DNA of 64,000 nt, taken from contig DXHQ01000078.1 of NCBI GenBank assembly GCA_019113345.1, forward strand, positions 1 to 64,000. Reading direction: 5' to 3'. The stretch comes from Candidatus Faecalibacterium intestinigallinarum. GTDB lineage: Bacteria > Bacillota > Clostridia > Oscillospirales > Ruminococcaceae. Positions 22,272-24,745 of this stretch are shown piece by piece. The notes under the pieces were generated by a model, which had not been told where the DNA came from, did no database searches, and was given only the letters and a program-made list of their open reading frames with translations. Each line of letters opens with the position of its first letter. Position 1 is the stretch's first letter. Both the position numbers and the translations under genes were made by a program.

Positions 22272-23048
22272 ATGGGCCTCTTTTTTGCCGACGACAGCTA
22301 TGACGAGAGCCGCCGGATGACGGGCTTCGCCCGCTACAAGCAGCTGCTGTCCTTTTACGCGGGGCGGTGGGTCAAGCTCAACCTGCTGGCGGCGCTGGGG
22401 GCGCTGCCCCTCGCGGCGGGCATCGCCTTTTCCATCCTGACCTCCAGCGTGGTGGTGCTGCTGCCGGCAAGCCTCATCGGCGGGACCGTCTTCGGGCCCT
22501 TCCTGGCCGCCCTCTATGACAGCATCTTCCGCGGCCTGCGGGACGCCCCCGGCTCCTGGCGGGAGCACTGGCGGCGCAGCTGGCGGCAGAACGCCAAAGC
22601 CAGCCTCGCGCCCGGCGCGCTGCTGGGCCTGCTGGCCGGGCTGTACGCCTTCATGCTCTACATGATGTGGTCGGCCGCGCTGCCGCCCACCCCCGGCACC
22701 GTGGCGCTGCTGGTGTTCAGTGCGCTGCTCTTCCTCGCGCTCAACCTGCTGTACTGGCCCCAGCTGGTGCTGTTTCAGCAGGGCGCAAAGGCGCGGCTCT
22801 ACAACGCCGTCCTCTTCACCATCCGCTATTTCTGGCGTGTGATGGGCGCGGCCGCGCTGGCGCTGGCCTGGACGGCCGCCTTCGTCCTCTTCGCGCCCTG
22901 GACGCTGCTGCTCGCGCCCTTCATCGGGCTGTGGTTCATCCTCTTCGTCTGCGAGTTCATCCTCTACAGCCGCCTGGACAGCGCCCTGCAGATCGAAGAA
23001 CAGTTCCGCGCCGTGGAAGGCGATCCATGGAAAGAGGAGAACGCATAA
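22272..23048 (+). CDS. DUF624/YesL-like membrane protein
   Basis: Multi-TM protein ...LNLLAALGALPLAAGIAF...GPFLAALYDSIFRGLRDAPGSWREHWRRSWRQNAK. Confidence 0.8.
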   Translation: MGLFFADDSYDESRRMTGFARYKQLLSFYAGRWVKLNLLAALGALPLAAGIAFSILTSSVVVLLPASLIGGTVFGPFLAALYDSIFRGLRDAPGSWREHWRRSWRQNAKASLAPGALLGLLAGLYAFMLYMMWSAALPPTPGTVALLVFSALLFLALNLLYWPQLVLFQQGAKARLYNAVLFTIRYFWRVMGAAALALAWTAAFVLFAPWTLLLAPFIGLWFILFVCEFILYSRLDSALQIEEQFRAVEGDPWKEENA

Positions 23049-23106: not shown

Positions 23107-23262
23107 CGGGAAGCATACGGTAAGCGCAGGGAAAATCCTTATAACCGTTACAGCATCATCAAACGTTGTCTTTTTTGTTCTTTGCAGCCCATACAATTTT
23201 CAACCGTCTCATTGCATGGAACGCTCTCTGTCGCTATAATGAAGGCAGGAGGTGTTGAAGAG

Positions 23263-23745
23263 ATGGCGAATGAAGCGCAAAAAGATTTTAACGCCATGCT
23301 GCATGACAGCAAGGATATGCCCAAGTTCCAGATCATCACAGATGCAAAGAGCATTGAAAAATACGGCGGAAACAGAATGTATTTTGCCCCGCCCATCGAC
23401 TATGACAAGGTGATGAAACGAATCCCCTATGGCAACGTCATCACGGTCGGAAAGATCCGCGAATACTTCGCCGAACTGCATGGGGCGGATTTCACAGAAC
23501 CCATCACGGCCGGGATTTTTGTGTCGATCGCAGCATGGGCAAGTTACCAGCGCTCCGAAGATGAAACCCCGTATTGGCGAACCCTAAAGGCAAACGGAGA
23601 GCTGAACGCAAAATATCCCGGCGGCATAGAAGCGCAAAAAGAAAAACTGGAAGCAGAAGGCCATACCATCATCCAGAAGGGCCGCACCAATAGAAAGTAT
23701 TTTGTAAAAGATTTTGAAAGGGTTCTTTTTGACTTGAAGAGGTAA
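23263..23745 (+). CDS. MGMT-family protein (alkyltransferase-like, no PCHR cysteine)
   Basis: KRIPYGNVITVGKIREYF...TPYWRTLKANGELNAKYPGGIEAQKEKLEAEGH; RBS AGGAGGT upstream of ATG 23263. Confidence 0.8.
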   Translation: MANEAQKDFNAMLHDSKDMPKFQIITDAKSIEKYGGNRMYFAPPIDYDKVMKRIPYGNVITVGKIREYFAELHGADFTEPITAGIFVSIAAWASYQRSEDETPYWRTLKANGELNAKYPGGIEAQKEKLEAEGHTIIQKGRTNRKYFVKDFERVLFDLKR

Positions 23746-23749
23746 AAAT

Positions 23750-24505
23750 ATGGCTCACATTCTAATTGTTGGCGCCAACCAGGGAATTGGGTATTATATC
23801 GTCAAAAGACTTTTAGCCACGGGTCATTCCGTAAGTGTTTTGGATGTAAACACAAACCATCTTGCATCGCTGCAAAAGGAATATCCAGAGCGGCTGTTTT
23901 CTATGATTGCGGATGCACAGAATCTTGCAAGCATCCAGGACGGCGTTTCACAGAGCATAAAAATCTTCGGCAACATCGATGCCGCCATCCATAATGCCTG
24001 TTTCTGTACATTTGAAAATGAGCAGAATAGTGACTATACAATGTACCAGAAAGCCATGAATGTCAATTTCTTTGGCGCTCTGCGACTGGCGAAAACAGTT
24101 CTCCCCTATATGCGTAAAGCCCAAAAGGGGCGCATCATTTTTACCAGTTCCGGTGTGGGCATTACAGGGTTTGCGAACATTTCACCCTATGCTTCCACAA
24201 AAGGAGCGATCGAATCGCTCGCCAAATGCCTTGAGATTGAGAATGCAACGTATGGAATTTCATTTCATCTCTTTCATCCACCGTTGACAAATACGGCATC
24301 CGCCCAAGGACTTCCCGTTCCGAAGGAGTTCAAAGCTGATCCTCAAACCGTTGGATACGGATTGGCCGATCATCTCTGGTCTAAAAAATTTGTAATTTGT
24401 CATTCTTTTATTCAGGAACTGCAAATCAGATTTTCCTATCGTCACCCTCTTTTTATTGGCAGATTGATGACCAAAATGACAAAACGAGCAGAAGAAAAGC
24501 ATTAA
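23750..24505 (+). CDS. SDR family oxidoreductase
   Basis: LIVGANQGIGYYIVKRLLATGHSVSVLDVN; FTSSGVGITGFANISPYASTKGAIESLAKCL. Confidence 0.92.
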   Translation: MAHILIVGANQGIGYYIVKRLLATGHSVSVLDVNTNHLASLQKEYPERLFSMIADAQNLASIQDGVSQSIKIFGNIDAAIHNACFCTFENEQNSDYTMYQKAMNVNFFGALRLAKTVLPYMRKAQKGRIIFTSSGVGITGFANISPYASTKGAIESLAKCLEIENATYGISFHLFHPPLTNTASAQGLPVPKEFKADPQTVGYGLADHLWSKKFVICHSFIQELQIRFSYRHPLFIGRLMTKMTKRAEEKH

Positions 24506-24612: not shown

Positions 24613-24650
24613 AGGCCGCCTCTGGCGCAAAGCCAGAGGCGGCCTTTCCC
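24613..24650 (+). terminator. intrinsic terminator
   Basis: AGGCCGCCTCTGGC-gcaaa-GCCAGAGGCGGCCTTT. Confidence 0.85.
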
Positions 24651-24714: not shown

Positions 24715-24745
24715 AAAGCGCGCCCCGCAGGGCGCGCCTTTTTTG
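24715..24745 (-). terminator. intrinsic terminator downstream of LysR gene
   Basis: AAAGCGCGCCC-cgca-GGGCGCGCCTTTTTT; works in either orientation. Confidence 0.75.

Follow-up and report, generated by a model that had tools for sequence, protein, structure and literature searches.

The gene at positions 23263..23745 (+ strand) of the window, i.e. the whole stretch of 64,000 nucleotides that was analysed, encodes a conserved, cysteine-less homologue of MGMT-fold proteins and is preceded by a private control switch. This suggests that the protein now binds DNA in order to sense or regulate, not to repair. The alkyltransferase fold has one known job, the finding of alkylated bases, with AGTs as the repairing form and ATLs as the signalling form. 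If this reading is true, the branch described here, which carries PYWR in place of PCHR, would represent a third use of the fold, in which the nucleophile, its histidine partner and apparently also the flipping tyrosine have been lost. This branch evolves with a dN/dS near 0.05 and takes its private promoter element along from one bacterial family to another. Members of the PYWR family occur in numerous gut bacteria of humans and animals as well as on Enterococcus plasmids; their sole annotation, 'MGMT family protein', wrongly leads one to expect DNA repair. One such entry in RefSeq, WP_002322212.1 from an Enterococcus plasmid, belongs to the same family (87% identical) and bears this generic name.

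A cysteine-less relative of the MGMT domain

The gene starts with ATG behind the ribosome binding site AGGAGGTG (23247..23254, + strand). Its product, which reads ...RIPYGNVITVGKIREYF...DETPYWRTLKANGELNAKYPGGIEAQKEKLEAEGH in translation, has 160 amino acids (18.5 kDa, pI 8.6) and zero cysteines among them. The features of the coding region, all on the + strand, comprise a strongly conserved, family-specific N-terminal extension (residues 1-39, 23263..23379), which lies outside the Pfam match; the stretch that matches Pfam DNA_binding_1 (PF01035) below its curated cut-off (23407..23661); a long predicted helix where AGTs and ATLs have their recognition helix (about residues 78-97, 23494..23553); and the PYWR codons at the PCHR position of alkyltransferases (residues 103-106, 23569..23580).

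The first-pass annotation had aligned the protein by eye with the MGMT DNA-binding domain, and this likeness is confirmed, albeit as a distant one. PF01035 is matched over residues 50-133 with E = 8.5e-6 and a score of 26 bits, one bit short of the curated cut-off of 27. The same family is matched by 9/9 diverse members tested, and no other Pfam family is matched consistently; a search of the window product against NCBIfam matched no model. When the family was compared, profile against profile, with sets of AGT and ATL proteins drawn from the same phylum as the window, the probability was 93-94% (E = 1e-7 to 3e-7) and P-Y-W-R was placed on P-C-H-R. Given the Pfam match, the nine relatives and this alignment, the relationship to MGMT is, as judged by profiles, distant yet real and not due to chance. 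The alignment also bears out the earlier statement that TPYWRTL occupies the PCHRV position, with both the cysteine and the histidine replaced. AlphaFold models built from shallow alignments of 54 and 46 close relatives had mean pLDDT values of 57.9 and 59.6. Foldseek with these low-confidence models gave no match at E <= 0.001; an ATL came first once, when the first model was matched best, though without significance, by the S. pombe ATL-DNA structure 3gx4 (E = 1). Because of their low confidence (pLDDT 58-60), the models were set aside as evidence for the fold.

A GTDB-wide scan of 84,980 species genomes revealed 219 stretches that encode relatives. The best 80 of these 219 are 83-93% identical and, as far as record names show, all from Bacillota; distribution beyond this phylum was judged from the same best 80 plus plasmid and phage collections. 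Genome searches extended the set of relatives to about 40% identity. With residues counted directly from the alignments of an unbiased tblastn set, 92 of 94 distinct homologues carry PYWR, one carries PFWR (Enterococcus gallinarum) and one fragment reads PWWG; the tryptophan is invariant, and neither Cys nor His is found at the catalytic positions (0/94). It is this set that gives the unbiased count, for a second set of 86 sequences was picked by the PYWR motif, which makes its 86/86 count for Y104 and W105 circular. As far as these alignments reach, PYWR is a trait of the whole conserved family. A cysteine occurs at position 79 in a distant subfamily (12/86), where the window's clade has Glu or Asp, so no replacement nucleophile is conserved. 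Conservation of PYW among homologues was a check named in the first-pass annotation, and a conserved cysteine elsewhere was named there as evidence to the contrary; the former was found, and the latter is absent from the protein and not conserved in the clade. All three results support the description of the protein as non-transferring.

Comparison with AGTs and ATLs

ATLs are defined by the loss of the cysteine, with the helix-turn-helix, the Arg finger and the flipping tyrosine kept, and also by a helix at the N-terminus and an extension at the C-terminus (PMC10779285). Both AGT and ATL proteins contact DNA via the minor groove without sequence preference (PMC10779285).

The PYWR family has the domain order of AGTs (Ogt, the Ada C-domain and human MGMT; PF01035) and their P-x-x-R, GG and EG landmarks, whereas the window protein, being devoid of cysteine, would not transfer alkyl groups by known chemistry. 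The host genome also encodes a normal Ogt with PCHRV elsewhere; the window protein is therefore not the sole member of the fold in the cell.

Like the ATLs (S. pombe Atl1, E. coli YbaZ and the Vibrio ATL 2KIF), the family combines homology to the MGMT DNA-binding domain with the absence of the catalytic cysteine, a bulky aromatic residue in PxxR, a conserved EG after the last helix and extensions at both ends, the C-terminal one following EGH. The solved structures nearest by sequence are both ATLs (E about 0.02-0.03 with a single-sequence query), and 2KIF reaches E = 0.0018 with a profile query. On the ATL profile the window protein scores 27.9 bits, compared with 14.0 bits on the AGT profile. 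The earlier remark that ATLs usually have PWHRV or an alanine at the cysteine position needs a supplement, as the solved Vibrio ATL has PWFR and thus sets a precedent for the loss of both residues.

Several features, however, set the family apart. It has PYWR where ATLs have PWHR or PWFR, a recognition-helix region that is longer by about 8-14 residues, and a gene-specific promoter element. At the flipping-tyrosine column (position 62) tyrosine never occurs among the 86 sequences, which have Val (65), Ile (10), Ala (5), Ser (4), Thr (1) or Leu (1). The Arg-finger column (position 91) has Ala in 86/86, although this column lies near an 8-residue insertion in a gapped alignment and its assignment is uncertain. 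R97, the sole strongly conserved basic residue of the predicted helix (84/86), could act as an Arg finger. Since the flipping tyrosine and, less certainly, the Arg finger are missing by alignment, the PYWR family appears to be ATL-related and yet cannot be filed as ATL.

A fusion protein encoded on pRUMAL01 of Ruminococcus albus (WP_013483608.1) has the motif in the form IPYWRIV and matches the ATL and PYWR profiles equally well (E about 1e-12 each). It differs from the PYWR family by an N-terminal RelB/DinJ domain and is only about 31% identical; one example was found. This RelB/DinJ-MGMT-like fusion (L093:3677-4339) may be a link between the ATL and PYWR groups. Three Firmicutes genomes (L163, L165 and L204) encode one-domain proteins of ATL length with an ATL-like C-terminus, yet with PCHRV including the cysteine. 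Open-licence papers on the PYWR family or its promoter element were not found, nor, as far as could be searched, was any characterisation of proteins of the WP_002322212.1 type.

Mobility of the gene and its promoter element

Among the genomes sampled from the same genus only three carry the gene, at 68-84% identity, which is less than the 93% identity to homologues of Parablautia, Pseudoflavonifractor and Lachnoclostridium. In three genus relatives the left-flank homology ends at 23006-23030, where the upstream gene stops; in a fourth, which is 97% identical, it extends into the MGMT-like gene before the contig ends. The gene is found on plasmids, in integrated elements and in chromosomes. 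With a median dN/dS of about 0.04-0.06 and synonymous sites near saturation, the protein is under strong purifying selection wherever it lands. The gene, AT-rich and patchily distributed within its genus, is a mobile single-gene cargo that moves among gut Firmicutes.

The neighbourhood offers no constant partner. As stated in the first-pass annotation, the gene lies in an AT-rich patch. It shares this patch (43-50% GC in a window of 64% GC) with the SDR-family oxidoreductase gene behind it (23750..24505, + strand), and the two are close on the same strand, although the SDR start is 4 nt after the stop codon and not 5 bp as given there. The SDR is not a conserved part of the unit. Its cluster adjoins the gene in this window and in none of the other carriers, so that the coupling fails as a functional clue. 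On Enterococcus plasmids (L094 and L097) the gene is directly upstream of the trimethoprim resistance gene dfrF, together with integrase and excisionase genes. This arrangement recurs in several gut species with the same 307-bp gap; dfrF was rejected as a partner because the linkage is confined to one mobile element. A conserved operon was likewise rejected: 96 neighbour proteins fall into 145 Pfam families, the commonest of which, GNAT, occurs in 6, and no regulator gene recurs among the neighbours across contexts. A phage origin was discarded, as two queries of phage records gave no match and two scans of viral contigs gave only 3 loci. Distant members detected in viral contigs by DNA motif were dismissed as chance matches. 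At the right edge of the AT-rich patch are an inverted repeat of 14 bp without mismatches and a GC-rich hairpin that resembles a terminator (24613-24645 and 24718-24737).

What accompanies the gene is its promoter element. When distinct upstream regions were aligned on the start codon, 72 of 86 had in common the non-palindromic element TTTT-n-AAAC-n-GY-CTCATTGCA(T), which with few exceptions is located 43-48 bp from the ATG. It consists of a T-rich tract and AAAC-n-G-[TC]-CTCATTGCA-[TC], followed by 17 unconserved bases and TATnnT. Mean pairwise identity is 0.96 in the element core, whereas the spacer reaches 0.37 and the sequence further upstream 0.29. In the window, the element (about 23195..23217, + strand) ends ...AACCGTCTCATTGCAT and overlaps the weak -35 hexamer TTGCAT (23212-23217), a poor match to TTGACA, and the -10 hexamer TATAAT (23235..23240, + strand) follows 17 bp after TTGCAT.

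Over about 80 carrier genomes, all exact sites checked but one lie before this gene or its remnants. The additional exact copies inspected in 31 of these carriers precede second copies or remnants of the gene, with one exception in front of an aldo/keto reductase gene of Lachnoclostridium An169, where TATAAT stands at the same spacing. A stricter pattern of element plus -10 hexamer found 53 sites in 50 carriers, about one per genome, and the reversed control found 1. Five extra sites inspected in these carriers proved to be another gene copy, the reductase site and three chance-like matches. Among 399 sampled genomes of the phylum the AAAC plus -10 pattern gave 0 sites, although the window's own element, which has CAAC, escapes this pattern too. 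Given the lack of further strong sites in carriers, the element is not supported as a shared recombination site or as the mark of a host regulon. A conserved operator-like sequence is situated at the gene's own promoter and is nearly absent elsewhere, as would be expected of an autoregulated transcription factor. Truncated or frameshifted gene remnants that still have the promoter element are found at L264 and L061:6428-6560. The element of locus L315 (Lachnoclostridium An169, G477:C22, 48494-48531, - strand) may be either a second target or the promoter of a lost MGMT-like gene.

The element is matched by a signature in the predicted helix. All 62 element-bearing members scored for both have [ED]79-[SA]88-W92-Q96-R97, nine Cys79-type members are all without the element, and three members (L032, L066 and L095) have the signature yet no element. 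It is important to note that the co-segregation of element and signature stems from a single branching of the tree and is to be counted as one event and not as many.

Possible functions of the PYWR protein

The most economical reading, which we favour tentatively, is that the MGMT fold has been repurposed as a self-regulating, sequence-specific DNA binder. The encoded protein would be the simplest reader of the element, because the element follows the gene across families, no regulator is linked to it and the hosts have nearly no other copies. A shared helix signature in the element-bearing members is what would be expected if protein and site co-evolve. The protein would keep DNA binding via its helix-turn-helix region, now in a sequence-specific manner, and with its own promoter element as a main binding site it would control its own synthesis. 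The weak -35 hexamer within the element and the perfect -10 hexamer would fit activation; repression through covering of the -35 region may also occur. The Tyr-Trp pair that replaces the reactive cysteine could form an aromatic pocket for a ligand or modified base, by which DNA binding would be switched. A more doubtful form of the proposal is that a lesion-flipping MGMT/ATL fold became a sequence-specific, ligand-switched transcription factor and moves between bacterial families as a self-contained gene-plus-operator unit. The Ruminococcus albus domain fused to RelB/DinJ would count for the DNA-binding reading. Against autoregulation, the reader of the element could be a transcription factor of the host that has a very small regulon, and specific binding would be a large change from the sequence-neutral binding of AGTs and ATLs.

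The first-pass annotation had left the choice between a lesion sensor and a repurposed fold. In favour of the latter are the loss of the flipping tyrosine and, less certainly, of the Arg finger, and a promoter element specific to the gene. The main rival, though a rather unlikely one, is an ATL-like lesion sensor whose enlarged aromatic pocket would accept a bulky O6-alkylguanine or some other adduct and which would pass the lesion on to nucleotide excision repair, the promoter being read by a host factor. Its nearest solved sequences and the better profile score (27.9 versus 14.0 bits) point to ATLs, as do the lack of the alkyltransferase cysteine, the N-terminal extension, the C-terminal extension after EGH, the PWFR of the Vibrio protein and, without significance, the top Foldseek match of the first model to S. 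pombe ATL. On the other hand, the flipping tyrosine and Arg finger, which AGTs and ATLs keep (PMC10779285), are not seen at the aligned positions, the recognition-helix region has an insertion, and repair genes are absent from the commonest neighbours. A host damage regulon would also be expected to have several targets, and the element has nearly none besides the gene itself.

We consider it rather improbable that the target is something other than damaged or specific DNA, such as a small molecule, RNA or a protein, with the protein having, for instance, an accessory role in resistance or phage defence and the element being a host-read or unusual promoter. The gene does resemble such accessories as a mobile, patchy, strongly conserved cargo beside dfrF in plasmid, integrated-element and chromosome settings, and GNAT, NUDIX and similar small cargo genes are among its neighbours. 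However, PADLOC defence models gave no credible match, dfrF is linked to the gene in one element only, always across the 307-bp gap, and the likeness to the alkyltransferase DNA-binding domain has been kept.

That the reading frame is decayed or arose by chance is next to impossible in spite of a Pfam score just below the cut-off: this idea is already refuted by the selection on the frame (dN/dS 0.04-0.06), which is present in more than 200 species genomes; its ribosome binding site and promoter are intact.
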